A stretch of DNA of 55,847 nucleotides from Propionibacteriaceae bacterium. Its GTDB lineage: Bacteria; Actinomycetota; Actinomycetes; Propionibacteriales; Propionibacteriaceae. The notes under the pieces are model-generated. The model searched no databases, was not told the DNA's origin, and saw nothing but the letters and a program-made list of their open reading frames with translations. Within the stretch, counting starts at the first letter, position 1; each line of letters opens with the position of its first letter. The stretch spans positions 1 through 55,847 of the forward strand of contig WQZD01000018.1 of the NCBI GenBank assembly GCA_009780915.1, given 5' to 3'. The position numbers and the translations under genes are program-made. This document shows positions 26,068 through 43,103 of the stretch, piece by piece.

Positions 26068-26071
26068 CAGT

Positions 26072-27343
26072 CTATGGCACGGGGTTGAGGGACGGTCGAT
26101 GCCAGTTCCTCCAGATCACCGCGCCCATGATGATGGTTTGCAGGACGAAGACGACCAGGAAGATCAGGCACGCGCCGCGAAGCCCCTGCCACGATATCCA
26201 CAGTGGCGATGTCATGGCGACCCCGGCGACCACGACCAGAGACCACGCCATGGCGACCTGTCGGCGCATGATGGTGAGGATGATGATGAAGAGGTTCGAC
26301 ATCGCCACGAAGCCGCCGGCGACCAACAGGATGGCCAAGTCTGTGCGCAGCCCGGTGAGGGCTACGCCTGAGATGAAGGAGAGGATCGGAAGGCCGATGA
26401 GGACGCCGCCGATGACGCACACGACCGTGATCCCGATGGTGATCAGGGTCACTGTGGCGATCGTGCTGAAGAGTCGCTTCAGGTTCCGATCGATCCATTG
26501 CGTGGACATGGAGTAGATCAGCGGGTTGAAGATGACGAAGCTGAGCAAGGAGATGACGAAGACGGGCATGGAGATGAGATTGAATTGTCCCTGCGCCGTG
26601 TCGTCGAGCACGGCGTCGATGCCGTACTTGGGCGCGTTGGTGATGTACATCGACAGGAAAGCCGCCAAGAACAAAGGCGCGCACGTCCACAGCAAGCCGG
26701 CGACGTGCCGTGCCTGCGCCTTCTGGTGGTTGTGCTCCCGATAGTCGTGCATGGCGGGCACGAGCAGGATCACGAGCAGGATCACGGAAGCCGCCAAACA
26801 GAACAACAAAGAGATTGACAAGTCGCGTGTGACGATCAGCGCGACGGCGAAGACGAGCGTGTTGAGGACGACGCGAGCGGAACTCACCCTGGAGCCGATG
26901 TCCAGGCGGCCGATCTGTTGGAAGAACCCCACCCAGACGTCTTCGACGGCGTCGACGGCCCGGATGAGCGTCACCAGGAAGATGATCCACGCCTTCTGTC
27001 CGGAGTAATGTCCGGTTCCCGCCATGACAAGCAGGAAGACGCTGGCGCTGAGCATCATCAGACCGACGGACAGCACACGGGACCACACGTACTCGCGCAG
27101 GCAGTACAGGCGGTTGACGTCCGAGGCTTGGTACTTGCGCATTCCGAAGGAGCCGATGGCCCACAGAATGATGGCCTGTGCCACGGCGAGGGCGAAGAGA
27201 CCGGCGTCTTCCACGCCGAGGAGGTTGGAGACGATGAAGAGCATCACCACCGACTGGGCCGCGAAGCACACGCTGGCGGTGATACTCCATACATAGGAAC
27301 TTCTCTCGACGTTCGTCGTCGTCGTGAGCAGGTGTCTGAGCAC
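26072..27343 (-). CDS. Polysaccharide flippase (Wzx-like)
   Basis: A 423-residue protein with about 12 membrane helices of the polysaccharide transporter/MATE-like type, moving lipid-linked repeat units across the membrane. The N-terminus YVWSITASVCFAAQSVVMLF and the early RKYQASDVN loop resemble Wzx proteins near lipid-linked oligosaccharide genes. The start is GTG 27343 with AAGGA upstream. No Wzy polymerase is obvious unless the DUF6541 protein plays that part. Its presence beside an ABC exporter suggests two export routes or two polymers. Confidence 0.85.
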   Translation of the reverse strand: MLRHLLTTTTNVERSSYVWSITASVCFAAQSVVMLFIVSNLLGVEDAGLFALAVAQAIILWAIGSFGMRKYQASDVNRLYCLREYVWSRVLSVGLMMLSASVFLLVMAGTGHYSGQKAWIIFLVTLIRAVDAVEDVWVGFFQQIGRLDIGSRVSSARVVLNTLVFAVALIVTRDLSISLLFCLAASVILLVILLVPAMHDYREHNHQKAQARHVAGLLWTCAPLFLAAFLSMYITNAPKYGIDAVLDDTAQGQFNLISMPVFVISLLSFVIFNPLIYSMSTQWIDRNLKRLFSTIATVTLITIGITVVCVIGGVLIGLPILSFISGVALTGLRTDLAILLVAGGFVAMSNLFIIILTIMRRQVAMAWSLVVVAGVAMTSPLWISWQGLRGACLIFLVVFVLQTIIMGAVIWRNWHRPSLNPVP

Positions 27344-27514
27344 TGTTGTGTCCTTCGAGCATGTGGAGTCGCCAGCAATTGCCCCTCATCTTACCTCGCG
27401 TCCGATGGCGGGGGAGCCGGGCAGGGACACCGCCGCAGGGTACACTAGGCTGGAAAACTGCCACGGGTCGCAGCCCTGTGACGAAAGAACCTGGTGTATG
27501 CGGAAAGGAACGGC

Positions 27515-28549
27515 ATGAGTCGGACGATAGAGGGAAAGACCATTGCCATCACTGGAGGGACGGGCTCTTTCGGGTCGACGATGACGGCCCATGTCTTGGC
27601 GTCGGGGGCGAAGGCCGTGCACATTTTCAGTCGCGACGAGGCGAAGCAAGACAACATGCGTCGCCAGCTGAATGACGACCGCGTCCGTTTCTTCCTGGGC
27701 GACACCCGGGACCGCGAGAGCATCAGGCCCGCGTTCCAGGGCGTCGACTATGTCTTCCACGCGGCCGCCCTCAAGCAGGTGCCCTCGTGCGAGTTCTTCC
27801 CCCAGCAGGCCGTGCTGACCAACATCGTCGGCAGCCAGAACGTCATCAGCGCGGCGGACGAGGCCGGTGTGCGCTCGCTCGTGTGCCTCAGCACGGACAA
27901 GGCCGTCTACCCGATCAACGCCATGGGCATGTCCAAGGCGCTCATGGAGAAGACCGCCCAGGCCTTCGCGAGGAACAACCCGAACTCGTCCATGACGGTG
28001 TCCATGACGCGCTACGGCAACGTCATGTACTCGCGTGGCTCCGTGATCCCGGTGTTCGTGCGCCAGGTCACCTCCGGGCAGCCCCTGACGCTCACCGATG
28101 GCGACATGACACGCTTCCTGATGTCCCTGGCCGACTCCGTCGACCTGGTGGAGTACGCCTTCACCCATGCCGAGCCGGGCGACCTGTTCGTCATGAAGGC
28201 GCCGGCGTCGACGATCACGGTGCTGGCTCAAGCGGTGGCGTCTCTGTTCGGCGTCGAGGACCCCGACATCCGTGTGATCGGGCTTCGCCACGGGGAGAAG
28301 ATGCACGAGACCCTCCTGTCGAGCGAGGACGCCATCAAAGCCGTCGACGAAGGCGGGTACTTCCGGGTCCCCATCGACGCGCGGGGGTTGCAGTACGAAC
28401 AGTACTTCGACCAAGGCTCCGCTGGCGCGAACGCCGAGGCGTACACCTCCGCCAACACCACGCGCCTGGACGTCGAGGGGACGAAGGCTCTGCTGCTCAC
28501 GCTTCCCGAGATCCGCGAGGAACTTGCCAAGGCGGGTATCCCAGCATGA
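27515..28549 (+). CDS. capE: UDP-GlcNAc 4,6-dehydratase/5-epimerase (CapE/FnlA type)
   Basis: First enzyme of UDP-N-acetyl-L-fucosamine synthesis, converting UDP-GlcNAc by dehydration and C5 epimerisation. The 344-residue protein has the NAD-binding GGTGSFG (14-20), AAALKQVPSCEF, the M-x-x-x-K catalytic region NAMGMSKALMEK in which the usual Tyr of SDRs is a Met, as in the CapE family, and GLRHGEKMHETL. ATG 27515 follows AAAGGAACGGC. It starts a tightly packed four-gene operon capE-capF-capG-GT4, with overlapping stop/start codons. Confidence 0.9.
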   Translation: MSRTIEGKTIAITGGTGSFGSTMTAHVLASGAKAVHIFSRDEAKQDNMRRQLNDDRVRFFLGDTRDRESIRPAFQGVDYVFHAAALKQVPSCEFFPQQAVLTNIVGSQNVISAADEAGVRSLVCLSTDKAVYPINAMGMSKALMEKTAQAFARNNPNSSMTVSMTRYGNVMYSRGSVIPVFVRQVTSGQPLTLTDGDMTRFLMSLADSVDLVEYAFTHAEPGDLFVMKAPASTITVLAQAVASLFGVEDPDIRVIGLRHGEKMHETLLSSEDAIKAVDEGGYFRVPIDARGLQYEQYFDQGSAGANAEAYTSANTTRLDVEGTKALLLTLPEIREELAKAGIPA

Positions 28550-29640
28550 CCCGTGTGGCCACGACTGGCGGCGACGGCTTCCTCGGTTGGCATCTCAGCT
28601 GTGCCGTGAAGGAAGCGGGCCCCGACCTCGCCGACGTTCCGGTGGGGGAGTTCTTCGACGCTGACCAGGCCCGACGAGCCGTGGACGGCGCCGATCGTCT
28701 CATCCACATGGCCGGCGTCAACCGCGGGTCGGATGACGATGTCCGAGACGGGAACATCCTCTTCGCTCGACAGATCTCCCAGGCGCTGCGCGAGGCGGCG
28801 GAGCCGGTCAAGAAGATCGTGTACTCCAACTCCATCCAGGCGTCCTTGGACAACGTCTACGGACAGGCCAAGAGCGAGGCGGCGCAGATCCTGGCCGACA
28901 CCGCTCACGCCATCGGCGCCGAGTTCGTCGACATCCGTTTCCCGAACCTCTTCGGCGAGCACGGTCGGCCCTTCTACAACTCCGTGGTCGCGACCTTCTG
29001 CCATCTGTTGGCAAACCAGGGCCGACCGGAGGTGAACCAGGACCGTGAGCTCACCCTCCTCCATGCCCAAGACGCGGCCGATGTGCTCCTGGGGACGGTC
29101 TCGGTGCCGGACATGGACGCCCTGACCCATCAGGAGACCGTGACCGGCCTCCTGCGTCGACTGACCGCCATCGCCGACACCTACCGGCGAGGCGAGATCC
29201 CCGACGTCGAGTCGCGGTTCGACCGCGACCTGTTCAACACGTACCGGTCGTACACCCCCTGGCTCACCACCGGGGTCGAGCTGACCCGGCACACCGACCC
29301 GAGGGGATCCTTCGTGGAGATGCTGCGCTCCCATGGCGGGTGCGGGCAAGCCTCCTTCTCGACCACGATGCCGGGGATCACGCGCGGGCAGCACTTCCAT
29401 CGCCGCAAGATCGAGAGATTCATCGTCGTGTCCGGCGAGGCCGCCATCGGTCTGCGGAAGTACGGGAGCGCGGACGCGGTGAGCCTCGACGTGTCCGGCG
29501 ACGCACCCGTGGCGGTGGACATGCCGACCGGCTGGACGCATAACATCCGCAACACCGGCTCGACTCCGCTCTACACGATTTTCTGGACCAATGAGTTGTT
29601 CGACCCCGAACGACCTGACACGATTGCCGAGGTGGTGTGA
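28546..29640 (+). CDS. capF: UDP-FucNAc pathway reductase/epimerase with cupin domain (CapF/FnlB type)
   Basis: A 364-residue two-domain enzyme. The N-terminal SDR domain begins MTRVATTGGDGFLGWHL and contains VYGQAKSEAAQIL (catalytic Y-x-x-x-K type). The C-terminal cupin (about 250-364) has GQHFHRRKIERFIVVSGEA with metal-binding histidines. CapF acts after CapE, combining a metal-dependent C3 epimerisation with NADPH reduction to UDP-6-deoxy-L-talose-type sugar, before CapG. The ATG overlaps the capE stop (ATGA). This matches the known capE-capF-capG gene order. Confidence 0.9.
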   Translation: MTRVATTGGDGFLGWHLSCAVKEAGPDLADVPVGEFFDADQARRAVDGADRLIHMAGVNRGSDDDVRDGNILFARQISQALREAAEPVKKIVYSNSIQASLDNVYGQAKSEAAQILADTAHAIGAEFVDIRFPNLFGEHGRPFYNSVVATFCHLLANQGRPEVNQDRELTLLHAQDAADVLLGTVSVPDMDALTHQETVTGLLRRLTAIADTYRRGEIPDVESRFDRDLFNTYRSYTPWLTTGVELTRHTDPRGSFVEMLRSHGGCGQASFSTTMPGITRGQHFHRRKIERFIVVSGEAAIGLRKYGSADAVSLDVSGDAPVAVDMPTGWTHNIRNTGSTPLYTIFWTNELFDPERPDTIAEVV

Positions 29641-29642
29641 CC

Positions 29643-30770
29643 ATGGGAAAGCTCACAGTCATGTCCGTCGTGGGGACTCGACCGGAGATCATCCGGTTGT
29701 CCGCCACGCTCAAACTGCTCGATACCTGCGTGAACCATGTGCTCGTCCACACGGGACAGAACTACGACTACGAGCTGAACGAGGTCTTCTTCGAGGATCT
29801 GGGGCTTCGGCGACCCGACCACTTCCTCGGGGCCGACACCTCCACGCTCGGCTCGTCCCTCGGGTCGATCATCACGAAGATCGAGGAGGTCATCCGGGCC
29901 GAACGCCCCGACGCCTTCCTCGTCCTCGGGGACACGAACAGTTGCGTCTCGGCGGTGATGGCGAAGCGGATGCGCGTCCCGGTGTTCCACATGGAGGCGG
30001 GCAACAGGTCCTTCGACGAGAATGTGCCGGAGGAGACCAACCGTCGCCTGATCGACCACGTCGCGGACTACAACCTGGCGTACACCGAGCATGCTCGTCG
30101 CAACCTGCTCGCCGAGGGCCTGCACCCTGCGAAGGTCATCGTGACCGGCTCGCCCATGCTCGAGGTCCTCAACCAGAACGCGACGCAGATCGACGCCAGC
30201 ACCGTCGTGGAGGACCAGGGCCTGGAGCCGGGGGAGTACTTCCTCGTCAGCCTCCACCGTGAGGAGAACGTCGACTACCCCCAGCGCCTGGCCATGGCCG
30301 TCGACGCGCTGCGCCGACTGCACGAGGCGTACGACCTGCCGATCCTCGTGTCGACCCACCCGCGTACCCGCAAACGGTTGGAGGCGATGTCGCTGACCGG
30401 GGTGGACGGGATCCACTTCCACAAGCCCTTCGGCTTCCACGACTACTGCAAGCTGCAGAAGCAGGCCAAGCTCGTGCTGTCCGACTCGGGGACGATCAGC
30501 GAAGAGTCGTCCATGCTGCGCTTCCCCGCTGTGACGTTGCGTGATTTCATCGAGCGGCCCGAGGCCGTGGACACCGGATCGATCATCACCGCGGGCATCG
30601 ACCCCGAGTCGGTCCTGGATGCGGTGAGCCTGGCGTTGTCCTTGCCCATTCCTCAAGCGCCTGTGGATTACCGGGTCCCCGACACCGCCCAGCGGGTGGT
30701 GTCGTGCATCGTCGGGACGGTCCACTCCCACGCTCGTCGGCTCGGCTTGTTCCAGGAGTCGACTCGGTGA
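29643..30770 (+). CDS. capG: UDP-N-acetylglucosamine 2-epimerase-like enzyme (CapG/FnlC type)
   Basis: Final UDP-FucNAc step, a C2 epimerisation. The 375-residue product has the WecB fold: VVGTRPEIIRLSATL at the N-terminus, LVLGDTNSCVSAVMA, FHMEAGNRSFDENVPEETNR and SDSGTISEESS in the C-terminal half. The stop of capF overlaps a possible GTG start at 29637, but ATG 29643 has a better distance to the GAGGTGG site. WecB and CapG are close relatives; the capE-capF context favours CapG. GTGA overlap with the next gene. Confidence 0.9.
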   Translation: MGKLTVMSVVGTRPEIIRLSATLKLLDTCVNHVLVHTGQNYDYELNEVFFEDLGLRRPDHFLGADTSTLGSSLGSIITKIEEVIRAERPDAFLVLGDTNSCVSAVMAKRMRVPVFHMEAGNRSFDENVPEETNRRLIDHVADYNLAYTEHARRNLLAEGLHPAKVIVTGSPMLEVLNQNATQIDASTVVEDQGLEPGEYFLVSLHREENVDYPQRLAMAVDALRRLHEAYDLPILVSTHPRTRKRLEAMSLTGVDGIHFHKPFGFHDYCKLQKQAKLVLSDSGTISEESSMLRFPAVTLRDFIERPEAVDTGSIITAGIDPESVLDAVSLALSLPIPQAPVDYRVPDTAQRVVSCIVGTVHSHARRLGLFQESTR

Positions 30771-31786
30771 AGATTCATGTCATCAACCATCATTTCTGGC
30801 CGGACGGGTCCCCCTCCGCTGTTCTCGAAGAGGAACTGGCGGACGCCCTGCGCCAGATGGGGCACGACACCGTCCTCGTCGCCGGATCGGGGTCGTTCCA
30901 CGATCTCGACCGACCGGCCCCGCAGTCGCCGATCATCCGCCTGACATCGGGAGAAGCCGGCAAGCGCGACAGCCAGATCGACATCCTGCGCGACTATCGG
31001 CTGTTCTGGAAAGCGGTGCGATCGTACATCCGCGAGCAGGTGGGTCCCGAGGACGCCGTGCTGGCCACGTCGTCCCCATTCCTCAACGTCTTCCTCATCG
31101 CCGGTCTTCACCGCCGCGCGCCGGGGGTGAAGACCATCTTCCACCTCCACGACTACCTGCCGAGCAATCTTCGGTCTCTGGGCGTCCTCTATCGCATGGC
31201 GGCGCCCTTCGTGAAGCGGATCACGGATCATTACCTGCAGAAGTGGGGACGGGTGATCTCGTGCGCGGGCAACATCGCGTACACGAAGGACAACTGCGTC
31301 GTGGCGCGGTTCTGGCCTACGATCACGGCGGACGAGAACCGACACATGGCGAGCGGGCGCCGCGCCCTGTACGCCGGGAACCTGGGGATCGCGCACGATG
31401 TCACGTCCCTGGTCGACGCCATGGACGATCTCCATGGGCAGGGATGGGAGATCGATTTCTACGGCGACGGACCCATGGTCAGCCGACTGCCGGCGTACGT
31501 GAACCGGCATCCCTTCGTCTCGGGCGAGGAGTACATCGACGTGCTGTACGGACATCCCATCCACTTCGTGACGGGGGTCGGTCGCGATGGCACGGGCGCG
31601 TTCCCGTCGAAGACGCACAACTCCCTGTACATCGGCGCCCATGTCGTGCCCTGCGGCTTCAGCCCCGAGATGGTCGAGGAACTCGACTACCTGCGCACCG
31701 TCCCAGACCTGTCACACAACCGCTGGGTCGCAGCCGAGGCTGTGAGCGAGTACTTGGGCACGCCCGCCGAACCCGCGCTCGACTGA
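30767..31786 (+). CDS. GT-B glycosyltransferase, WbuB/GT4-like, probable FucNAc transferase
   Basis: A 339-residue protein starting at GTG 30767, which overlaps the capG stop. The N-terminus has INHHFWPDGSPSAVLEEELA as in WbuB-type L-FucNAc transferases; a middle FHLHDYLPSNL segment and GNLGIAHDVTSLVDAM with FYGDGPMV are GT4-like. Since it directly follows the UDP-FucNAc genes, transfer of FucNAc onto the growing chain is likely. The C-terminal end is shorter than usual for GT4, but the donor site with HNSLYIGAHVVPCGF is present. Confidence 0.8.
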   Translation: MKIHVINHHFWPDGSPSAVLEEELADALRQMGHDTVLVAGSGSFHDLDRPAPQSPIIRLTSGEAGKRDSQIDILRDYRLFWKAVRSYIREQVGPEDAVLATSSPFLNVFLIAGLHRRAPGVKTIFHLHDYLPSNLRSLGVLYRMAAPFVKRITDHYLQKWGRVISCAGNIAYTKDNCVVARFWPTITADENRHMASGRRALYAGNLGIAHDVTSLVDAMDDLHGQGWEIDFYGDGPMVSRLPAYVNRHPFVSGEEYIDVLYGHPIHFVTGVGRDGTGAFPSKTHNSLYIGAHVVPCGFSPEMVEELDYLRTVPDLSHNRWVAAEAVSEYLGTPAEPALD

Positions 31787-31845: not shown

Positions 31846-33942
31846 TCACTCGCTCAAGTTGCCGAACAACAGCGGGAACTTCTCCACCAGATGCCAGTTG
31901 GCGAAGTCACGGGCGTCTCCCACGACCTCGAAGCGGTCGCCGAAACCAGGATCCGAGTTCCACATGGGCCGGTACCACACGTAGGTGCGTGGCGCCAGGG
32001 AGTCCTCGGGGACGTCGAAGTACGACACCGTGTCTGCGCGTGGCGTCGTCACCGCGTCGTAGGCCTGGTTGGTGGTGTGTGGCATCGGTCCCGCGTCCTT
32101 GAGGACGGTCGGCCACAGGTTGAGCTGCGACGTGGGCGCCGCGCTGAACGCGAGGGGCTCCGTCGACGAGCCACGTGGCTTGACGAAGAGGCTGGCGAGG
32201 AGGGGATGGTCCAACTCGCGGATCTCCGCGCTCACCTGGCGGCCATGGTCGGCGGTGATGATGATCGTCGCGTCGTCGTAGATGCCGAGCCGCTTCATTT
32301 CGTCGAGGTAGTCGTAGATGATGTGGAAGACGCCCTTGGTCTGGACCAAGTCATTGGTCCCCCCGGCGACGGGACGTCCGTCCTCTCCGAGGGTCCAGGG
32401 GGCGTGGGAGCCCTGCAGATGGAAGAAATTCACCTGCGGCTGGTCCCCCCTCAGGGTGAGGCCGTGCTGGTCGAGCTTCGTCGAGAACGTGAAGTCGTCG
32501 AAACCATAGGGGGCGGGAGCGTCGGCGGGCGTGGTCGTGACGTGGGCGAACTCCGTCGTGTCCATCCAGAAGCTGGGCTTGGCGATCACGGGGGCGTCCA
32601 CGAAGGAGGCCAGTTGGAGCATCCCCTTCGCCATGACCTTCCGGTCCACGACCGTCGGCGCGGTGGCGAAGTTGTCGACCAGCCCGGCGATGTCAGAATC
32701 GTGGGCGTAGGAGTTGAACTGGCCGGAGTACACGTTGACGGAGTAGCCCGCGTCCTTCAGCGTCCTCAGCGCGGTCGCGTCCGCCCATGCCTGGCTCTTG
32801 TACGCGCTGTACGTGGTCGTGAAGAAGTAGTCCTGGCCTGTCAGCATGCTGGGCACGCCGGGATCGGTCTGGCTGAACCGACTCATGTTCTGCGTGAACT
32901 GGGTGAATCCGGTCAGCGGGTCGAAGAAGTGCGGATCGTCCTGCCGGATCCGATCGGGGATGTTCCCGTCGAACTCGTCGACGACGAAGATCACCGCGTT
33001 CCGGGTCGACGACAAGGAGAAGGCATTGTTATATGACAGGTAGCCGACGTTCTGCTGGGTGGTGGCCACCTGTGTGGACGAGGCGGAGTAGGTGCCGATG
33101 AGCGACACGGAGCTGCCGGCCAGGATGACGATGGCCAGCACGACCATGACGGCGGTCCACAGTTTCTTGCTCAGGACTCGAATCAGGAAGACGGCCGCGA
33201 TGACGGCGAACCACATGGCGAGGTTGACCACGGCCACTCTCGTGTAGTCCTGCCACTTCACCGGGACTCCCATGAAGGAGCCGAAGTCGGGGTTCCAGAA
33301 ATGCATCTGGAGCCACCCGGCGGTCGAGACGCCGGCCACAGCGCAGATCAGCGCGTCGAAGACCCGTCCTCGGAAGATGAACAGCGCCACCGTCAGTCCG
33401 GCGCCCAGGCAGGCGAAGATCAGCAGGGTGACCGGCAGGAGGTCATGGATGGTGAAGGCGAACTGCGTGGCGTTGCTGGAGAAGAGGTCCAGCACCGAGA
33501 AGAGGACGAACACCATCGCCAGGGAGAACGACATGGCGGCGGACAGGCCCAGGCGGGCCCACCACCGGCGGTCGTCGTGCCAGAGGAAGGCACGCTTGGA
33601 CCAGGTGGTCGTGGTGGGGGCGGCCTGCGTCCCGGCGGCGTCCTCGACGGCCAGGCGGCGCTTCTTCTGGGCCTTCCAGGCACGGCGTCCCGAGGCGGTG
33701 AAGGTCCGCACCCAGAAGGCCGAGGTCTTGGCGCCCAGCGTCAGGAAGAAGAGCTGGAGTTTGCGGAAGAAGACCCCGATGGCCACGCTGAGGGTGATGA
33801 CCAGGCCGGACACGATCTGGATCAGATAACTCGTCGTGGCGGGATCGATGTACGCGGCGTTGGCGGGGGCCGGGGTGAACCCCACGCATGCGACCGCCGT
33901 CAGGAGGACCCAGAACGCGCGTTTAGGCATGAGCCGTCTCAT
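31846..33942 (-). CDS. Membrane-anchored sulfatase/alkaline phosphatase-fold enzyme, phosphodiester transferase-like
   Basis: A 698-residue protein. Residues 1-27 look like a signal or first helix ending PANAAYIDPATTSYLIQI; the AYIDP-x-T-x-x-x-I-Q motif is seen in other envelope proteins. About four further membrane helices follow to residue about 315, then an extracellular alkaline-phosphatase-superfamily domain with AVIFVVDEFDGNIPDRI, FSQTDPGVPSMLTGQDY and IIITADHGRQVS (metal sites). LtaS-type phosphoglycerol transferases and sulfatases have this fold; the D-E-F variant is common in capsule loci. Overlap of about 20 bases with the YidC-fusion gene suggests co-translation. It may add or remove phosphodiester substituents outside. 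Confidence 0.75.
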   Translation of the reverse strand: MRRLMPKRAFWVLLTAVACVGFTPAPANAAYIDPATTSYLIQIVSGLVITLSVAIGVFFRKLQLFFLTLGAKTSAFWVRTFTASGRRAWKAQKKRRLAVEDAAGTQAAPTTTTWSKRAFLWHDDRRWWARLGLSAAMSFSLAMVFVLFSVLDLFSSNATQFAFTIHDLLPVTLLIFACLGAGLTVALFIFRGRVFDALICAVAGVSTAGWLQMHFWNPDFGSFMGVPVKWQDYTRVAVVNLAMWFAVIAAVFLIRVLSKKLWTAVMVVLAIVILAGSSVSLIGTYSASSTQVATTQQNVGYLSYNNAFSLSSTRNAVIFVVDEFDGNIPDRIRQDDPHFFDPLTGFTQFTQNMSRFSQTDPGVPSMLTGQDYFFTTTYSAYKSQAWADATALRTLKDAGYSVNVYSGQFNSYAHDSDIAGLVDNFATAPTVVDRKVMAKGMLQLASFVDAPVIAKPSFWMDTTEFAHVTTTPADAPAPYGFDDFTFSTKLDQHGLTLRGDQPQVNFFHLQGSHAPWTLGEDGRPVAGGTNDLVQTKGVFHIIYDYLDEMKRLGIYDDATIIITADHGRQVSAEIRELDHPLLASLFVKPRGSSTEPLAFSAAPTSQLNLWPTVLKDAGPMPHTTNQAYDAVTTPRADTVSYFDVPEDSLAPRTYVWYRPMWNSDPGFGDRFEVVGDARDFANWHLVEKFPLLFGNLSE

Positions 33943-36181
33943 ACTGCTTCTCCAGTTCGTCTGCTTGGTGGCGGATGGCGTGCGCCTTGGACTCCAGATC
34001 GTCGGCCTGCTCGCGCATCCGTGTGATCTTGCCTCGTTCGATCCGTGCACTTTCCTCCTCTAGGAGCTTCAATTGTTCTGCGGTGGCCGTGCCGGTCGCG
34101 TCGGCGTGCTCGGCGGCCGCCAGGTCTTTGGCGTGCGCCTTCTCGGCCAGCGATGCCAGGAGATAGGCCGCGCCCGCCTGTGCGCTGTCCCCGACATGGA
34201 AGAGGTTGGTGGTGACGACCTCGTCGATACGGGCCGCCCATGTGGTGGGGTTGGCGACCATCCCGCGTGCCACGTCGCCGATGGTGGCGAGGTCGTCCAC
34301 GTCGATCGACACACCGATCTCGTCGCGCAGGGTGATGTCCAGGGGGACGGCGTCGATTCTCGTGTAGTTGTGGTTCATGATCTTCATCGGCGTGTTGATG
34401 AAGATGGACGGCTTCTTCGTGACGTACGAGAACTCCTGGGCGATGGACGACCAGTCGGTCACGACCACGTCGGCGTTGTACACCGTCGAGTTCGAACTGA
34501 AGTCCGTCTCGATCTGGAGTCGTCCGTCGGCGACGGCGTCACGGAACTGGTCGCGGATGGCGTCCACCTTGTCGGGGAAGCGCTTGCAGAACTCGGGATG
34601 GGGCCGGATGATGACGATGAATCCGGCGTCCAGCAGGGGCTGGACGGTCGGCGTGAGGCAGATCTCCAGCAGGTTCTCGGGTTGCCAACTCGGCGCGATC
34701 AGGGCGATGGGCGGGTCGTTGACCACCAGCCCGCCTTGGGCCTCGACGCCCGCCAGCATCTGGTCGAGGAGCGGATAGCCGACGTTGACGAGGCGCTTGG
34801 CCGGCAGGGAGTACGCCTCCTCGGTCTGACGCACCTCGGTGATGTGGTTGGGGCCGTTGCAGAAGATCGTGTCGAAATGATCCAACGCGCCCTCGCGGAA
34901 CGTCAGGTGGAAGCTGGTCATGCCATGGTCGACATAGACGTACTCCACATCGGGGCGCACCAGGGAACGCTTGAGGTGGTACGTCTCCAGGTCGGGCGTG
35001 GTCATCACGGCGATGTCGACGTCCAGGCGCATCAGGAAGGGGATGAGCGCCCTCGGCGACACGCAGTACGGGACCAACTGCTCGCTGGCGTGGGAGAAGA
35101 CCTGGTCGTTGACGTCATTCGTGACGTAGTGGACGACGACGTCGGACTGGGCGATGAGGGCCTCGACGAGGCCGGCGAAGTACTTCCAGTAGCCGGAGCC
35201 CTCGGAGTACACCATCACCTGCTTGGGGCCGGCCTTGTGGAAGCGGCGCACGTCCACCCGAGATTTCGCAGCCGTGGCCTTCTTGAGCGCGCGCTGCTCG
35301 GGGGAGACGCGTTTCTTGGTGACGACGACGGAGTAGTCGACCTTCTTCCTCGGGTCGGCGATCACGTTGCACAGCCAGACCACCAGGATGGTCAGGAGGT
35401 TTCCGGCCGTCCAGTACAGGCCGAAGGCGCCCGGCAGGACCAAGGCGAAGTAGCCGGAGAAGGCAACCATGAAGGCCGTCATGCCCCAACGGGAGCCTCG
35501 GCCGGCCATCTTCTGGAGGACGTAGTACCTGTTCTGGTACAGGCACATGGCCAAGGCTGACAACCCTGACAGCACGGGCCAGATCATCGACGCGGACCCC
35601 CACGTGGGGACCTCGGCGAGGTTGAATCCGAAGAAGGACAGGTCGACGCCCTGGATGGCGGACAGGTCGGCCAGAGGGGCCACGCCCTGGAAGGTCGTGG
35701 GGTCCGACTGGACGAGTTCCATCACCCGGGTCTCTCCGGCCAGCCCGAGGTCGGCCGGCGTGGTGTGGAGAAGGGAGGCCGCCTGCTGCACCAAGGCGGT
35801 GATCGACTCGGCCGAGAGCCTCAGGATGTGGCGCAGCGGATGGTACACGACGGCGATCACGCCGAGGACGATCGGGATCTGGATCAACAGGGGCAGGGAG
35901 CCCTTGACAGCGGAGTAGTGGTTCTCTTTGTACAAGCGGCGTTGCTCGTCGAGGATGAGGGCGCTGTTGCCCTCGAACCGCCTCTTGATGTCGTCCAGGC
36001 GTGGTTTCAGCAGCGCCATGGTGATGGCATTGTGCTGGGCGAGGAGCGACAGCGGGAAGAGGATGGCTTTGACGACGAGCGCGAACAGGATGATCGCCCA
36101 GCCATAGCTGAGGGTGATCTGGTAGCACCCGTGCAGGAGCCAGCCCAAGGGCGTGCCGAGGAGCCAATCGAGGAAAGACAT
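33923..36181 (-). CDS. YidC/Oxa1-like membrane insertase domain fused to a TagB/TagF-like glycerophosphotransferase
   Basis: A 752-residue fusion. Residues 1-277 match the YidC/Oxa1 core: helix and LPLLIQIPIVLGVIAVVYHP, LYKENHYSAVKGS, and late helices WGMTAFMVAFSGYFAL and GLYWTAGNLLTILVV. The groove position, Arg in most bacteria, seems to be Lys38 (ALVVKAILFP). Residues about 318-690 match CDP-glycerol transferases: YVDHGMTSFH (His419), IIRPHPEF (526-531) and DVVVTDWSSIAQEF (571-584). A predicted coiled coil (about 700-752) ends the protein. ATG 36181 is the likely start. The gene is divergent from the LicC-LicA fusion. YidC domains normally fold membrane proteins; fused to a transferase, this one may hold the lipid-linked acceptor or an anchor. 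The role is inference. Confidence 0.85.
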   Translation of the reverse strand: MSFLDWLLGTPLGWLLHGCYQITLSYGWAIILFALVVKAILFPLSLLAQHNAITMALLKPRLDDIKRRFEGNSALILDEQRRLYKENHYSAVKGSLPLLIQIPIVLGVIAVVYHPLRHILRLSAESITALVQQAASLLHTTPADLGLAGETRVMELVQSDPTTFQGVAPLADLSAIQGVDLSFFGFNLAEVPTWGSASMIWPVLSGLSALAMCLYQNRYYVLQKMAGRGSRWGMTAFMVAFSGYFALVLPGAFGLYWTAGNLLTILVVWLCNVIADPRKKVDYSVVVTKKRVSPEQRALKKATAAKSRVDVRRFHKAGPKQVMVYSEGSGYWKYFAGLVEALIAQSDVVVHYVTNDVNDQVFSHASEQLVPYCVSPRALIPFLMRLDVDIAVMTTPDLETYHLKRSLVRPDVEYVYVDHGMTSFHLTFREGALDHFDTIFCNGPNHITEVRQTEEAYSLPAKRLVNVGYPLLDQMLAGVEAQGGLVVNDPPIALIAPSWQPENLLEICLTPTVQPLLDAGFIVIIRPHPEFCKRFPDKVDAIRDQFRDAVADGRLQIETDFSSNSTVYNADVVVTDWSSIAQEFSYVTKKPSIFINTPMKIMNHNYTRIDAVPLDITLRDEIGVSIDVDDLATIGDVARGMVANPTTWAARIDEVVTTNLFHVGDSAQAGAAYLLASLAEKAHAKDLAAAEHADATGTATAEQLKLLEEESARIERGKITRMREQADDLESKAHAIRHQADELEKQYETAHA

Positions 36182-36270
36182 GGCCGCAAGATTACCATGT
36201 TGACACATCGTCCAGAGAGTCACTATTGTTGCCAGATCGAATGTTCGTCAAGCATGTCAGAATCGAGAAA

Positions 36271-38061
36271 ATGAACAGCATAGCCACCCTGTGTCGGGAG
36301 ATCGCCTCGTCCCCCGTGACGTCCCAGCGAGAGATCGCCTCTCGGCTCGACTGCTCGCTCGGTCGGGCGCACAGCCTCATCACCGAGGCCATGGCGAGGA
36401 GCTATGTGCGGCATGCCAACGGGGGATACGAACTGACTGACACGGGCCACGTCTGGCTCGACCAGTTCAAAGTCGACAACGCCATCATCTTGGCGGCCGG
36501 GTTCGGGTCGCGGTTCGTCCCGTTCACGTACGACACGCCCAAGGGGCTGATGAAGGTCAAGGGCACTCCCATGATCGAGCGCCAGATCGAGCAACTCCAT
36601 GCCGCGGGCGTCACCTCGATCCAGGTCGTGGTGGGGTACCTGAAGGAGAAGTTCGAGTACTTGACCGACAAGTACGGCGTGACCCTGGTCTTCAACCCCG
36701 AGTACGCGACCAAGAACAACATGGCGAGCCTGTACCACGCCCGTGGATACCTGGGCAACACCTATATCCTCGTCGCCGACAACTGGATCGAGAACTCCCT
36801 CTTCCACGCCTGGGAGCCCGACAGCTGGCTCAGTTGCGTGTTCTTCGACCAGCCGGCGGACGAGTGGAAAGTCAACCTGGGATCCTATGGGCGCATCACC
36901 AAGATGGAGATCGGGCTCACCAGCGGTTGGGCCATGATCGGCCCGGCGCACTTCACGAGGGAGTTCTCCCAGACGTACGTCCCGATGCTGGAGGCTTACT
37001 ACCACCGCCCGGGCACCCAGGATTTCTATTGGGAGCACATCGTCAAGGAGAACCTCAAATCCCTGCCGATCCACATCAACAAGCAGGCGACGGGCAATGT
37101 GTACGAGTTCGAGTCCTTCGAGGACCTACGACGCTACGACGCGACCTACATGATGAACTCGAACAACGAGGCGCTGGCCACCATCGAGACCGTGTTCGGG
37201 GTCTCCCAGGCGGAGATCACCGGCATCCGTCCCCTCCAGGGCGGTTTGACCAACTTGAGCTTCGTCTTCGAGTGCCAGGGGACGGCGTACGTCTACCGCC
37301 TGCCCGGGGCGGGAAGCGACAAGCTCATCGACCGCCACGACGAGAAGGCCACGTACGACCTGATCGCAGGGCTGGACATCGCGGACGAGATCTACTACTT
37401 CGACCCCGAATCGGGGGTGAAGATATCACGGTTCTATTCCGACGTCCGGGTCTCGAACGCCGAGTCCGAGGATGACGTCCGCGACTCGATGCGGCTGCTG
37501 AAGACCATCCACGACGCCGGGATCACCCCCGATCACCGCTTCGACATCGAAGAGCGCATCGCGTACTACGAGACGCTGGCCCAGGACATGGACGCCATCA
37601 CCTTCGCCGACTACCCGAAGGTGCGCGCCAAGGCGGACGAACTGCTGGCCTTTCGACGCGCCCTCGACGTCCCCGAGGTGCTGTGCCACATCGACTACAT
37701 CTATGCCAACATCCTGCGGGTGCCCGACGGGTCGATCCGTGTGATCGACTGGGAGTACTCCGGCGCCGCCGACCCCCTGATCGACATCGCGATGTACGGC
37801 ATCTTCGCCTACTACACCAAGGCCCAGATCGACCGGGCTCTGCGCTACTACCTGGACCGCGAGCCGACCGCCCGCGAAGAGGCGAGGACGTACCTGTACG
37901 TCGCGCTCGGCGGGTTCGTGTGGAGCATCTGGTGCGAGTACAAACAAGCGTGTGGTGACGAGTTCGGGGACTACTCGGTGACCATGTACCGGTATATGAA
38001 GGAGTATTACCGGATTCTCAAAGATGGAGGGTATCTCGATGAGTGTGTTGACAGCCACTGA
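36271..38061 (+). CDS. Winged-helix + LicC-like cytidylyltransferase + LicA-like choline kinase fusion
   Basis: A 596-residue three-domain enzyme. Residues 1-62 form a winged helix: TSQREIASRLDCSLGRAHSL then GGYELTDTGH. Residues 69-295 match LicC: AAGFGSRFVPFTYDTPKGLM, NNMASLYHARG and ILVADNWIEN. Residues 300-590 match choline kinase LicA: GGLTNLSFVF, then LCHIDYIYANIL (His473, Asp475, Asn480) and IRVIDWEYSGAADPLIDIA (Asp493). LicA phosphorylates choline, LicC makes CDP-choline, and both serve phosphocholine decoration of surface glycans. The LicB-like gene starts within its 3' end. The N-terminal DNA-binding-type domain could make this an autoregulator or sense choline; that is inference. 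ATG 36271 is the likely start. Confidence 0.9.
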   Translation: MNSIATLCREIASSPVTSQREIASRLDCSLGRAHSLITEAMARSYVRHANGGYELTDTGHVWLDQFKVDNAIILAAGFGSRFVPFTYDTPKGLMKVKGTPMIERQIEQLHAAGVTSIQVVVGYLKEKFEYLTDKYGVTLVFNPEYATKNNMASLYHARGYLGNTYILVADNWIENSLFHAWEPDSWLSCVFFDQPADEWKVNLGSYGRITKMEIGLTSGWAMIGPAHFTREFSQTYVPMLEAYYHRPGTQDFYWEHIVKENLKSLPIHINKQATGNVYEFESFEDLRRYDATYMMNSNNEALATIETVFGVSQAEITGIRPLQGGLTNLSFVFECQGTAYVYRLPGAGSDKLIDRHDEKATYDLIAGLDIADEIYYFDPESGVKISRFYSDVRVSNAESEDDVRDSMRLLKTIHDAGITPDHRFDIEERIAYYETLAQDMDAITFADYPKVRAKADELLAFRRALDVPEVLCHIDYIYANILRVPDGSIRVIDWEYSGAADPLIDIAMYGIFAYYTKAQIDRALRYYLDREPTAREEARTYLYVALGGFVWSIWCEYKQACGDEFGDYSVTMYRYMKEYYRILKDGGYLDECVDSH

Positions 38062-39127
38062 GCAGAAGACGCGCCTGAAGCGCACGTTCTTCACGAAGGG
38101 CCTGGTCATCGCGACGGTGTCAGGCATGGCCTACGGGCTGTACTCGGCGTTCGTGACGCAGGCCATGGGGCAAGGAGTCTGGGGGTCCTGGTACGGGCCT
38201 GACACGGTCCTGTCCGCCTTCGTGGTGGTCTATGTCCTCGGCGTGCTGGGGTCGGGGATCAACGATCTGGTCAGCGCCGTGTGGGCGGTGGGCATCGCCG
38301 GTCTCAAGGGCAAGTTGATGGATTTCTTCCGGTCTGTGAAGACGAGGCCGGGCATGGTGATCATGGCCTGCGCGGTGATCGGCGGGCCGATCGCCTCGGC
38401 CGCGTACATCATCTCCCTGCAGATGGCCGGGTCGATCATCGCGCCGATCACGGCCCTGTGCCCGGCGCTGGGCGCGATCCTGTCGCGGTTCCTCTTCAAG
38501 CAGAAGCTCAACCTGCGCATGGTGATCGGCATCCTCATCTGCCTGGCCGCCACGCTCATGATCGGGTGGTCCAGCCTCCAAGCGGACGCGCGTCCCGGCG
38601 CTGTCCTGGGCTGTGTGATCGCCTTCATCGCGGCCGTGGGCTGGGCGATCGAAGGGGCGGTGGCCGGGTTCGGCACGACCGTGGTCGAGTACGAGATCGG
38701 CATCACCATCCGTCAGCTCACCTCCGGGGTGGTCAACCTGCTCGTGGTGCTGCCGTTGATGTGCTTCTTCGCCGGTCACATCGGCCTCGCGCCGCGTCTG
38801 GTCGTCGACGCGGTGACCAGCGGCGGATCCATGATCTTCTTCGTGATCTCAGGGTTGTTCGCCCTGTTCGCCTACAGTCTGTGGTACAAGGGCAATTCCA
38901 TGTGCGGGACCGCGCTCGGCATGGCCTGCAACGGCGCGTACTCCTTCTGGGTGCCCTTCTTCTGCTGGCTCATCCTCGGCGTGTTCTTCGGCCAAGACGG
39001 CTGGGCCCTGCAGCCCATCGCCTGGGTCGCGGCCGTCGTCATGTTCCTCGGCATCCTCGTGATCGCCGTCAATCCTCTGGAGTGGTTCCGGCGGAATACG
39101 TCTTCGCTCATGGAAGAGGTGGCCTGA
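38039..39127 (+). CDS. LicB-like choline permease (DMT superfamily)
   Basis: A 362-residue membrane protein with about ten helices in two EamA-type repeats. It starts at ATG 38039 after GGAGGG, overlapping the 3' end of the lic fusion by 23 bases. LicB imports choline for LicA and LicC. Family-like segments are GLVIATVSGMAYGLYSAFVT, SLQMAGSIIAPITALCPALG and FALFAYSLWYKGNSMCGTAL. The first repeat contains LSAFVVVYVLGVLGSGINDLV. Choline specificity is inferred from the gene partner. Confidence 0.85.
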   Translation: MSVLTATEQKTRLKRTFFTKGLVIATVSGMAYGLYSAFVTQAMGQGVWGSWYGPDTVLSAFVVVYVLGVLGSGINDLVSAVWAVGIAGLKGKLMDFFRSVKTRPGMVIMACAVIGGPIASAAYIISLQMAGSIIAPITALCPALGAILSRFLFKQKLNLRMVIGILICLAATLMIGWSSLQADARPGAVLGCVIAFIAAVGWAIEGAVAGFGTTVVEYEIGITIRQLTSGVVNLLVVLPLMCFFAGHIGLAPRLVVDAVTSGGSMIFFVISGLFALFAYSLWYKGNSMCGTALGMACNGAYSFWVPFFCWLILGVFFGQDGWALQPIAWVAAVVMFLGILVIAVNPLEWFRRNTSSLMEEVA

Positions 39128-39397: not shown

Positions 39398-39460
39398 CCG
39401 TCAGGCAGGGGTCCCTCAGGTAGGGGGTCCCTCAGGCACGGGTCCGTCAGGCGGGCGGGT
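39398..39460. repeat. Four imperfect 15-17 bp tandem units
   Basis: Four units of the type CCGTCAGGCAGGGGT, with variants such as CCCTCAGGTAGGGGGT, run head to tail between the lic operon and the convergent DUF2304 gene, extending into its last codons. Confidence 0.6.
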
Positions 39461-39833
39461 CCGTCTCCTGCGGTTCGCTGGCCGGGGAGGACGGCGCCAC
39501 GCGGCGCTCCAGATCGGCACGCAGGATAGCGGCCTCCTCGGCGAGGCGGCGGATCTTGTCTTCTTGCGAGGAGACCTCCAACGACAGGTGGAGGCACACC
39601 CCCAGCAGGAGGAGGATGGCCAAGGTGAACAGCAGGTTGGATCCGACCTGGATGCCGACGAAGTGGGCGACTGTTCCGAGCAGGCTGGGGAAAGCCACCA
39701 AGACCAGGCAGGCGACGCCCACCAGGGCCCACAAGATGGCGTACTTCTCTTTCAGCTTCCGCGAGCGCAGCAGCAGGAAGATGGCGAGCAAGAGCGCGAC
39801 GGTGATGACGCAGAAGAAGATGATCGCTCTCAT
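39447..39833 (-). CDS. DUF2304 membrane protein
   Basis: A 128-residue protein with three membrane helices (MRAIIFFCVITVALLLAIFL, then AILWALVGVACLVLVAFPSL and LLFTLAILLLLGVCLHL) and a cytoplasmic coiled-coil-like tail (about 85-110). DUF2304 proteins commonly pair with dolichyl-phosphate-mannose-synthase-like transferases, as here. The start ATG 39833 overlaps the upstream gene stop (ATGA). It probably helps anchor the polyprenyl-phosphate glycosyltransferase at the membrane. The repeat 39398-39460 overlaps its last codons. Confidence 0.85.
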   Translation of the reverse strand: MRAIIFFCVITVALLLAIFLLLRSRKLKEKYAILWALVGVACLVLVAFPSLLGTVAHFVGIQVGSNLLFTLAILLLLGVCLHLSLEVSSQEDKIRRLAEEAAILRADLERRVAPSSPASEPQETDPPA

Positions 39834-40546
39834 CGGGCGGGGCCTCCTTTGACGGTGCTGGGTCGTGTCAAAGCGATCAGCAGGGCGACCATGGACCGCA
39901 CGAGGTAGACGGCTGACTTCCAGGGGTTGTGGGACGGGGTCCCAGCCTGGCGGGTGCGCATGACCACGGGGATCTGGGTGACGCTCAACCCCGCGCGGAT
40001 CGCCCCGATCAGGGAATCGACGGTGTCGCCCAAGTACTCGGCCGGGTAATGGCGGCAGTACTGCGCGATGGCTCGGGAGTTGCCGGCCCTGAATCCGCTG
40101 GTGATGTCGGTCAGGCGCGCGTGTCCCACACGCGAGACGATGGACGCCAGGAGCCGCATGGCCCACTTGCGGGGCCCCTTGACGACGTACGTCCCCTTGT
40201 CGGCGAATCGGGCGCCGATGCAGATGTCGGCGTGGTCCAGCCCCGCCAGCACGGCGAGGATGTCGCCCGGATCATGCTGTCCGTCGGCGTCGACCTGGAT
40301 GGCCTGGTCGTACCCGTGCCGTTTCGCGTACTCGTACCCCGCGCGCATCGCGCCGCCCACACCGAGGTTGAAGGGCAGGCGCAGGACGACCGCTCCGGAC
40401 TCTTCGGCCACATCGGCGGTTCGGTCGGTGGAGCCGTCGTCGACGACCAGGACGTCCAACTGCGGCACTGTGGATCGTATCTCGGTCAGCGTCGCGCCGA
40501 TGGCGTCGACCTCGTTCCACGCCGGCACGATGATCAACTGCTTCAA
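39830..40546 (-). CDS. DPM1-like polyprenyl-phosphate glycosyltransferase
   Basis: A 238-residue GT2 enzyme, IIVPAWNEVDAIGATL, LVVDDGSTDRTADVA, NLGVGGAMRAGYEYA and QVDADGQHDPGDI. The start is TTG 40546: a GGAGG site lies seven bases upstream and ORF extensions have no better one. It probably makes a polyprenyl-phosphate-linked sugar used by GT-C enzymes such as the DUF6541 protein; which sugar is unknown. It overlaps the DUF2304 gene (ATGA) and follows the next GT2 gene by about 13 bases. Confidence 0.87.
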   Translation of the reverse strand: MKQLIIVPAWNEVDAIGATLTEIRSTVPQLDVLVVDDGSTDRTADVAEESGAVVLRLPFNLGVGGAMRAGYEYAKRHGYDQAIQVDADGQHDPGDILAVLAGLDHADICIGARFADKGTYVVKGPRKWAMRLLASIVSRVGHARLTDITSGFRAGNSRAIAQYCRHYPAEYLGDTVDSLIGAIRAGLSVTQIPVVMRTRQAGTPSHNPWKSAVYLVRSMVALLIALTRPSTVKGGPAR

Positions 40547-40559
40547 AGCTGGACCTCCA

Positions 40560-41462
40560 CTATCGGTGACGTGACTGGGCGCGCAGCGGGCCAGGCGTCG
40601 GCGTCGTCTCGTCGAACACACGCTCGGCGTTGGACGGGACCACCCAGGTTCCCACTCGCAACCACAGATGATACCCGAAGCGGCGGACCAGGGCGGGCAG
40701 GTAGCGGTACAGCGGTCCTCGCAGAAGGCGGTTCCGGACCCACTGCGTCGGCGTGATGAACCCCATGGACAGGAACTCCCGCTGGAGTTGAGCCTCCGAG
40801 CGGGCGAGTTTGCCGCCTCCGCGCCGGTGGAAGGCGCCGTCGCCGGTGCGGTAACACACCAACACCTCGTTGATGTTGGTGACGTTGGCGCCGTTCATGA
40901 TCATCTTGGCCCACAACAGGTAGTCCTCCATCTGCCGGAGGATGGGGTACCCGCCGGCTTTGAGGACCGCCTGCTTGCGGAAGACGACCGTCGGGTGGTG
41001 GAAGGGGGACCCCAGTCGCGCGTGGTGGAGGATCGCGGCTCGCGAGGTCTTCACCGGGCGCATGGCGTCTGGATGGTCGGGGTCGGTGTGGAACTCGGCC
41101 ATCGCGGAGCCGACCAGGTCGAAGCCGGACTCGATGACGGGGATCTGGCGCGCGAAGCGTTGAGGCAGGCAGATGTCGTCGGCGTCGGCGCGCGCGACGA
41201 TGTCGGTGGTCACATAGGTCAGGCCGAGGTTCAGGGCTGCCGCGAGCCCCATGTTGGTCGGGATGCGCACGACGGTGGTGCGCGGATCCTGCTCGATCTC
41301 GGCCAACCACGCCGACACCCCGTCGGTCACGGGCCCGTCCTGGACGACGACCATCTGCGTGGGAGCCAACTCCTGGGCTGTGGTGGCGCTGAGGAACGCC
41401 GAACGGACATACCGCTCGTCGTCCTGGGCGTACACCGCCATGAGAAGGGCAAACTCTCCCAT
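40560..41462 (-). CDS. Family 2 glycosyltransferase
   Basis: A 300-residue GT2 enzyme, FALLMAVYAQDDERYV, MVVVQDGPVTDG, NMGLAAALNLGL and DIVARADADDICLPQR. The family-typical R-x-D-x-D-D metal motif is clear. The C-terminal HPTVVFRKQAVLKAGGY and QMEDYLLWAKMI are usual for envelope-polysaccharide GT2 enzymes. The start ATG 41462 is the first in-frame ATG consistent with homologues; no strong ribosome site. First gene of the three-gene minus-strand unit with the DPM1-like and DUF2304 genes. Confidence 0.87.
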   Translation of the reverse strand: MGEFALLMAVYAQDDERYVRSAFLSATTAQELAPTQMVVVQDGPVTDGVSAWLAEIEQDPRTTVVRIPTNMGLAAALNLGLTYVTTDIVARADADDICLPQRFARQIPVIESGFDLVGSAMAEFHTDPDHPDAMRPVKTSRAAILHHARLGSPFHHPTVVFRKQAVLKAGGYPILRQMEDYLLWAKMIMNGANVTNINEVLVCYRTGDGAFHRRGGGKLARSEAQLQREFLSMGFITPTQWVRNRLLRGPLYRYLPALVRRFGYHLWLRVGTWVVPSNAERVFDETTPTPGPLRAQSRHR

Positions 41463-41560
41463 TTGTGAACCAACACTCTCGTTCGCACGTCGTGTTATGA
41501 CTGTATCAGGCCGAGGCGGTGCGTGGTGGACGGCTCCCCGCGCGTGAGGGGATCGTCCGG

Positions 41561-42586: not shown

Positions 42587-42593
42587 GCCTGTC

Positions 42594-42599
42594 AGCATA
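42594..42599 (-). promoter_or_regulatory. -10 element of galE, leaderless spacing
   Basis: On the minus strand TATGCT ends seven bases before the galE ATG, with no ribosome site between. Confidence 0.45.
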
Positions 42600-43103
42600 C
42601 AGCCCCCATGGAGGCGCCCGACCTGGCCGGCGGGTCCTCCATACGTCCTCGACACGCCCGTCCACGAGTGTGGGAATCACGATTCGGACGCGGCCGCGTC
42701 AGGTGGACTTGCCCGCGGGGGAAGAGTATCGTTAATGGAGTTCTTGAGAACTAGATTCGGTGGCTGGGTGGATCCGAAATCTGGGGGCGTGATCGAGAAT
42801 GTGACCGGTGACGGTCGCATAGGTGACGACGTGCGGGATTCAGAATCCGCAGTTGATGGGAAAATTGTAAAATCAATCTCATAATTTCACATACATGTAG
42901 ACAAAGTGATAGCCTACAAATAATCGAGGATCTCATGCGGGGGGTATGCATGATTGGTCCGCACCACATAATAACGTGATAGAGCTGAAGCTTTCCCCGT
43001 TGCTTTAGCTCGTCCGATGAAAATCGGATTATCCCACCCCGGATGGTGGCGGTTTCCCCAAGCCGCCACCATCGCTATGTCTGCGACCCGGTAGGGTAGG
43101 GGC
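42600..43103. other. Intergenic region with three hairpins and an AT-rich stretch
   Basis: No convincing gene. About 42720-43030 is clearly more AT-rich than its surroundings. Three stem-loops lie in a row near the 3' end: GAGCTGAAGC (42982-42991) with GCTTTAGCTC (43002-43011); TCCGAT (43013-43018) with ATCGGA (43024-43029); and the perfect ATGGTGGCGG (43044-43053) with CCGCCACCAT (43064-43073). No T-run follows any of them. TAGGGT at 43092-43097 is a plausible -10 for the next gene. Confidence 0.5.

Follow-up and report, generated by a model that had tools for sequence, protein, structure and literature searches.

A YidC-TagF-like fusion protein encoded beside choline genes in a Propionibacteriaceae bacterium: a candidate membrane-anchored headgroup transferase with a near-constant phosphatase-superfamily partner

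The DNA analysed here, referred to throughout as the window, is a stretch of 55,847 nucleotides from a Propionibacteriaceae bacterium (contig WQZD01000018.1 of GenBank assembly GCA_009780915.1), and on its minus strand lies a gene whose product joins a YidC/Oxa1-type membrane domain to a TagF-like transferase domain. An original prediction, made from the sequence alone, had proposed one 752-residue protein carrying both halves, and this was borne out: a single minus-strand frame starting from the ATG at 36181 encodes both, each with a domain match over its curated cut-off. The gene and its parts are as follows.

33923..36181, minus strand: YidC-TagF-like fusion gene, 752 amino acids, ATG at 36181, stop at 33923-33925
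35342..36181, minus strand: YidC/Oxa1 domain, approximately residues 1-280, scoring above the cut-offs of TIGR03592 and PF02096, with Lys38 (36068-36070) and Tyr256-Trp257
34112..35230, minus strand: TagF-like GT-B domain, residues about 318-690, from PF04464 and Foldseek, with His419, RPHPE at 526-530 and TDWSS at 575-579
33926..34081, minus strand: C-terminal long helix, residues 701-752, in the predicted model

The N-terminal part matches PF02096 over residues 26-272 (E 3.8e-28, 98.9 bits against a cut-off of 35) and TIGR03592 over residues 25-271 (99.7 bits against 84.3), and a profile search of the PDB with 11 family members returned seven distinct sequences at E<=1, all of them YidC, the best at E 3.2e-16. 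The YidC-like membrane core proposed for this part is thus present at the level of sequence, and the fusion is by sequence a member of the YidC/Oxa1 family, any insertase function being hypothetical. In the second half, PF04464 covers residues 453-595 (E 1.9e-6, 27.5 bits against 22.1), and the proposed motif positions, His419, RPHPE at 526-530 and TDWSS at 575-579, are exactly where they were said to be. Alignment of this half by hhalign (96.9%) with four TagF-like proteins of the same genome places His419 opposite WHA, RPHP opposite KMHP and TDWSS opposite TDYSS; the His and the TD-x-S-S motif are presumably catalytic.

An AlphaFold2 model built from 11 family sequences (mean predicted local distance difference test score 85.9, predicted template modelling score 0.68) has helices at residues 26-68, 73-86, 91-113, 197-219, 228-248 and 251-274, which by eye run in YidC-like order, followed by an alpha/beta domain from residue 320. 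The comparison with TagF that had been proposed as a check came out in its favour: in a Foldseek search of the PDB the first-ranked match was TagF (3l7k; E 7.2e-9, TM-score 0.57 by target length), a GT-B fold, with a capsule multienzyme of Actinobacillus pleuropneumoniae and then mostly other GT-B-type enzymes close behind. No YidC was among the best 50 matches listed in that search. Residues 701-751, where a coiled coil had been proposed, form one long helix in the model, poorly conserved across the family in length and sequence. Window positions 35600-35824 (residues about 120-194) encode an extended segment, present in the window's branch, that separates membrane helices two and three; matches to members about 40% identical skip approximately residues 114-193.

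A second copy of the fusion, 63% identical, is encoded in the same genome. Among 57 genomes sampled from genus to order, four gave a match to the whole protein (G000, the window's own, and G003, G012 and G013), the others matching in the YidC half only. A contig scan added ten loci, titled as Propionibacteriaceae, Actinomycetes, Bifidobacteriaceae and Coriobacteriales/Coriobacteriia metagenome-assembled genomes; the sample codes Emb289 and Cu122 in their titles denote the termites Embiratermes neotenicus and Cubitermes ugandensis (PMC7024585, cited from an excerpt, as are the other articles given here by PMC number). The family is common in the class of genome G068, taken to be Coriobacteriia because it includes a Coriobacteriales contig. 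Of 396 genomes sampled there, 74 match the fusion at E 1e-40. From the window's own class one of 394 sampled genomes carries the family (G000 only), a draw that presumably missed the same-genus G003, G012 and G013.

An alignment was assembled from the window's protein, its paralogue, the ten contig loci and a further 66 loci, drawn from 65 of the 74 matching genomes of Coriobacteriia, making 78 proteins, of which some are cut by contig ends and two (L052 and L122) come from the same contig, so that one contig is counted twice. All 78 carry both halves in one frame. Asn217, Tyr256, Trp257 and His419 are invariant in all of them, and RPHPE and TDWS are kept in every protein with letters there (77/77). 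Ten loci of the nine remaining Coriobacteriia genomes were kept out of these counts. Six have both halves in one frame; L187 is cut, yet in what is left a single frame runs from the tail of the YidC half through the TagF half; two others stop short of the YidC half; and in G740 (L186, 6782-9110) the match is spread over overlapping frames, one of 350 and one of 524 residues, with a break close to query residue 330, within the TagF part, be it through a frameshift or a true split. The fusion architecture is therefore real and evolutionarily stable, and the proposed search for it in other genomes has been answered with 78 single-frame proteins from Propionibacteriaceae, Bifidobacteriaceae and Coriobacteriia. 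The same proteins rule out a frame error at the window. That the architecture as such might be an assembly or frame artefact, or two genes joined by mistake, has the broken match in G740 on its side; against 78 single-frame proteins from several classes and many assemblies its probability is negligible.

Two other origins were considered and rejected. A search of viral contigs gave no relative, and a Foldseek search of viral structures gave low-similarity matches, largely to glycosyltransferases, among the 50 best listed. Of 32 plasmid records with a match, 20 were listed, and in these the matches are confined to residues 1-313, the YidC half; the two that were inspected are YidC genes in a dnaA-to-jag neighbourhood. 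No description of the fusion was found in the open-access literature searched, most subscription journals lying outside that search; the original prediction likewise knew of no described function for such a protein. One article (PMC6381275) contains the relevant words, and in the excerpt available its subject differs from a YidC-TagF fusion. The component families are known; their combination, the near-constant third component described below and the association with lic and phosphonate genes seem not to have been described.

Residue 38, which we take to be the groove position of YidC from a by-eye placement on the YidC motif, is Lys in 77 of the 78 proteins and Arg in one. The original prediction had singled out Lys in place of Arg here. 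The residue is where it was said to be; the implication that it is special does not hold, since the housekeeping YidC of Subdoligranulum (L044) has Lys in the matching stretch and E. coli YidC R366K supports growth in a Y517A background, so that Lys works at the groove position (PMC8920935). Lys38 as the sign of an altered or decayed groove was dropped on the same two grounds.

The housekeeping gene order rnpA-yidD-yidC-jag is not seen at the fusion gene. It is present around another gene on contig C16 of the genome, where dnaN, dnaA, rnpA, yidD, yidC and jag follow one another (by eye from the translations), and on account of this separate YidC the idea of the fusion as a replacement for the housekeeping protein was dropped. 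A tree was computed for YidC domains from 24 fusions and 50 other proteins; it carries long-branch warnings, and its fusion rows were cut at 320 residues, linker included. One branch (100/99) sets the fusion rows apart from the others, with Subdoligranulum YidC as their neighbour.

The most constant feature of the fusion loci is one that had not been mentioned before, the gene that follows.

31846..33930, minus strand: partner, a membrane protein in the alkaline-phosphatase/sulfatase superfamily; PF00884, conserved Thr

Its likely start, a presumed ATG at 33930, overlaps the end of the fusion gene by 8 bases. The protein has several hydrophobic stretches followed by a 416-residue domain, with PF00884 at E 6e-8 (32.8 bits against a cut-off of 25). 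Adjacency was counted over the 70 of the 78 loci with at least 1.3 kb downstream, and in 64 of them the partner is directly downstream or in frame: 56 were scored by script, L171 by eye, and seven are triple fusions, in which YidC, TagF-like half and partner share one frame, 1357-1401 residues long. The partner is directly upstream in L055 and L175 and lies 3.4 kb downstream in L149. Among the ten loci of the nine remaining genomes, seven of the eight with room have it (six adjoining, and L192 as a triple fusion). Thr occupies the presumed nucleophile place in 65 of 66 partner sequences, and two Asp, an Asp-His pair and two further His are kept in 65 or 66 of them. A partner profile gave 36 PDB matches at E<=1, each partial, headed by phosphonate monoester hydrolase (E 1.7e-8) and LtaS (E 1.5e-7). 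The motif Cys-x-Pro-Ser-Arg, which we take to be that of sulfatases, was by eye not seen in the partner stretches inspected. The partner is read as an outer-face phosphotransferase or phosphodiesterase. One fusion gene that stands without a partner, at L151 (7981-10038), sits amid frames that by eye resemble ribosomal protein genes.

This close association raises the idea that the YidC domain is a dedicated insertase, which would place the partner beside the transferase and so form a two-enzyme complex without any movement of lipid. The near-constant Lys38 and invariant Tyr256-Trp257 would suit such a role, as would a partner with several hydrophobic stretches encoded directly downstream, in the window by an overlapping gene, and the triple fusions do tie partner and fusion together. 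The genome, however, has its housekeeping YidC, and in the triple fusions the partner is part of the same chain; we regard this explanation as quite improbable.

On the other side of the fusion gene, and divergent from it, lie genes for the uptake and activation of choline.

36182..36270, no strand: gap left between the diverging genes for the fusion and LicCA, given a LicCA start at the presumed ATG 36271
36226..38061, plus strand: LicC-LicA fusion (cytidine triphosphate (CTP):phosphocholine cytidylyltransferase and choline kinase) with an N-terminal winged-helix-like segment, from PDB matches
38024..39127, plus strand: LicB-like choline permease, PDB 7b0k at E 1.9e-6

That the divergent neighbour makes cytidine diphosphate (CDP)-choline, as had been proposed, agrees with its nearest PDB chains, which identify a LicC-LicA fusion: CTP:phosphocholine cytidylyltransferase 1jyk (E 2.3e-42) and choline kinase 4r77 (E 6.9e-37). 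For the LicB-like protein 7b0k (LicB) is the only PDB match at E<=1, PF00892 being below cut-off. The N-terminal segment of LicCA matches PF25213 and MarR_EPS, both below cut-off, and is possibly a built-in regulator of the divergent genes; two Coriobacteriia LicCA frames (L086 and L133) open with a similar-looking stretch.

The link between the fusion architecture and lic genes, which had been put forward as a check, extends beyond the window. In Coriobacteriia, LicCA (E 1e-60) is found in 66 of 74 genomes with the fusion and in 83 of 322 without it, and among the 57 relatives (E 1e-30) in 4/4 with and 3/53 without; the thresholds differ between counts, and the genomes are related, so p-values overstate. 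LicCA (E 1e-20) also lies within the fetched stretch at 16 of 66 Coriobacteriia loci, where about one would be expected. In the window's genome (99.4% complete) a search for LicD gave no match at E 10. Because this genome has LicA, LicB and LicC and no LicD match, the fusion is the best candidate for its missing phosphocholine transferase, and because the three genes adjoin the fusion gene, CDP-choline is the likely donor in this genome, a judgement that rests on the neighbourhood. The donor proposal thus gains support on its CDP-choline side. The LicD domain (PF04991) has no match in the fusion protein at E 0.1, and so the fusion may act like LicD though it is not a member of that family.

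A glycan locus surrounds the fusion (24880-31786 and 39447-42655), with GT4, Wzx-like, GT2 and DUF2304 genes and three FnlA/FnlB/FnlC-like genes, which we take to be for uridine diphosphate-L-FucNAc (N-acetyl-L-fucosamine); a frame that by eye is GalE-like also lies in it.

The donor suggested by the alternative half of the original proposal, CDP-glycerol, would fit a protein of another kind: a teichoic-acid-type polyol-phosphate transferase or polymerase acting on CDP-glycerol or CDP-ribitol, with YidC as a plain anchor and the lic genes incidental. TagF is after all the top-ranked solved fold, at 50 of 66 Coriobacteriia loci the fetched stretch lacks LicCA, and five PF04464 matches over cut-off besides the two fusions, at G000:C13:28088-50579 and C14:39498-40421, mean that CDP-glycerol or similar donors may be available in the genome. 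The co-occurrence with LicCA and its local clustering above chance count against it, however, as do the phosphonate genes near two family members and the lack of a LicD match in the window's genome, and we consider the polyol-phosphate explanation rather unlikely, though of real weight. The five matches on C13 and C14 have themselves the look of a separate teichoic-acid-type locus.

The phosphonate genes are found in two places. In G233 (L091, 5523-10240) a phosphoenolpyruvate (PEP) mutase-cytidylyltransferase, a thiamine pyrophosphate enzyme and an iron-dependent alcohol dehydrogenase (Fe-ADH) are followed by a stand-alone TagF-like half, a row that is a candidate pathway for hydroxyethylphosphonate decoration; at L169, matches to PEP-mutase and Fe-ADH lie close to the triple fusion. 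The cytidylyltransferase domain of Fom1 forms cytidine monophosphate (CMP)-hydroxyethylphosphonate (PMC6697681). Since the family has these neighbours, and a second copy in the window's genome without a lic match nearby, its donors are best described as a class of small headgroups activated with CDP or CMP.

We therefore favour the following reading, whose chances of being right or wrong we judge about equal: the fusion of this gut bacterium is a membrane-anchored headgroup transferase that uses a CDP- or CMP-linked donor, works with a partner outside, and here stands in for LicD. The two domains, their conserved motifs, the retained groove-type residues, the partner, the statistical link to LicCA and the lack of a LicD match in this genome are observed; donor, acceptor, order of steps and the part of the YidC domain are what we infer. 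In the window's genome LicB, LicA and LicC would supply CDP-choline; the TagF-like domain, in the cytosol, would move the phospho-headgroup from its activated donor onto a membrane-bound acceptor, most likely a cell-surface molecule, positioned close to the YidC-type domain; and the partner, as the next gene product or within the same chain, would work on the product at the outer face, either as a transferase or as a trimming phosphodiesterase. The cytosolic location of CDP donors and the basic character of the segment after the last YidC helix point to an inside position for the TagF half. In LtaS the domain that follows the hydrophobic stretches is outside, and the partner's 416-residue domain, placed likewise after the last of its hydrophobic stretches, should be outside too. 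With the two halves of the machine on opposite sides, the product must be reachable from outside. A Wzx-type flippase might carry the finished lipid-linked glycan across (the window has a gene for a PF01943 protein), or the YidC half might itself move lipid.

For the second route there is a precedent in liposomes, in which E. coli YidC and other insertases scrambled lipids (preprint PMC10491306), and by analogy it is possible, as a prediction, that the YidC domain presents or scrambles lipid. This leads to an alternative in which the YidC domain scrambles or presents a lipid-linked product and the partner transfers the headgroup outside, a lipid-donor route fed by CDP-choline. The conserved Thr and nearly invariant Asp and His of the partner and the place of LtaS among its matches would be in keeping with this, and PptA, of the same superfamily, has been discussed with a phosphatidylcholine-donor model (PMC10434233). 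It is set back by its reliance on a lipid product and on scrambling by YidC in cells, both hypothetical here, and by the chance that the partner is a hydrolase, and it too seems rather unlikely while deserving serious attention. The fullest version, in which an insertase domain has come to handle lipids for surface decoration, we think unlikely: the TagF-like domain would make a phosphocholine- or phosphonate-lipid from a CDP or CMP donor inside, the YidC groove would carry the headgroup across, and the phosphatase-superfamily domain, fused or coupled, would pass it to a surface glycan outside; were it true, one polypeptide of about 1,380 residues would make, flip and transfer.

Several observations weigh against the headgroup-transferase reading, or limit its reach. 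The TagF-family Pfam match is confined to residues 453-595, and the five further PF04464 proteins of the genome have already been mentioned. LicCA was not found at 1e-60 in 8 of the 74 fusion genomes, occurs without the fusion in 83 genomes, and is missing at E 1e-20 from the fetched stretch at the 50 loci noted above; in the 18.6 kb covered for the second fusion copy (L042), no lic gene was matched. The phosphonate genes near members in G233 and L169 speak against a pure choline role. No partner was found at L048 (1.9 kb of room), L151, L164 or L193, all loci with room, and several sulfatases are among the partner's PDB matches. Finally, LicD coexists with the fusion in 40 of 57 LicCA-bearing fusion genomes. 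This share is lower than the 71 of 80 among LicCA genomes without the fusion (80 of 86 such genomes having been searched; p 0.008, kinship uncorrected), a difference in favour of the reading. In those 40 genomes, though, the fusion is not simply a LicD substitute, and the idea that it replaces LicD everywhere was rejected.

If the headgroup-transferase reading is right, a sizeable share of Coriobacteriia would possess a LicD-independent route for phosphocholine (probably also phosphonate) decoration, a YidC-family domain would gain a role in glycan or lipid modification, and the fusion would offer a natural test of whether an insertase groove handles lipids in cells. It also gives a caution for annotation, as a label of 'YidC' or 'CDP-glycerol transferase' would hide a machine of two or three parts.

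Compared with known systems, the fusion resembles TagF (3l7k) in its GT-B fold and its His, RPHP and TD-S-S motifs, so that a CDP-linked donor and a membrane-bound acceptor are to be expected, and differs in its LicCA linkage, its near-constant phosphatase-superfamily partner and the limited span of its PF04464 match; we know of no TagF that carries a YidC domain. It is like YidC/Oxa1 in scoring over the TIGR03592 cut-off, in the order of the model's helices as judged by eye, in the positive residue at the presumed groove place and in the aromatic pair, but it is joined to a transferase, lies outside the housekeeping place and stands apart from the 50 other YidC domains in the tree, subject to its long-branch warnings. 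The partner shares with LtaS, EptA and PptA, with phosphonate monoester hydrolases and with sulfatases PF00884, the Thr and the order of hydrophobic stretches before a 416-residue domain, although only parts of it align to solved chains; its likeness to EptA is presumed, by eye. PptA is relevant to a locus that combines LicA, LicB and LicC with an enzyme of the phosphatase superfamily, though the partner is not thereby identified as a PptA. With the Lic-1 pathway the locus has in common the LicA, LicB and LicC that adjoin the fusion gene; it differs in that the genome has no LicD match and the fusion occupies LicD's place in the neighbourhood. In PntC phosphonate activation the phosphotransferases named in the excerpt are LicD-like, together with glycosyltransferases, rather than a YidC-TagF fusion; the likeness lies in CMP-activated headgroups for surface decoration, and in Olsenella uli and Atopobium rimae lic genes are reported to be relatively nearby (PMC6697681).

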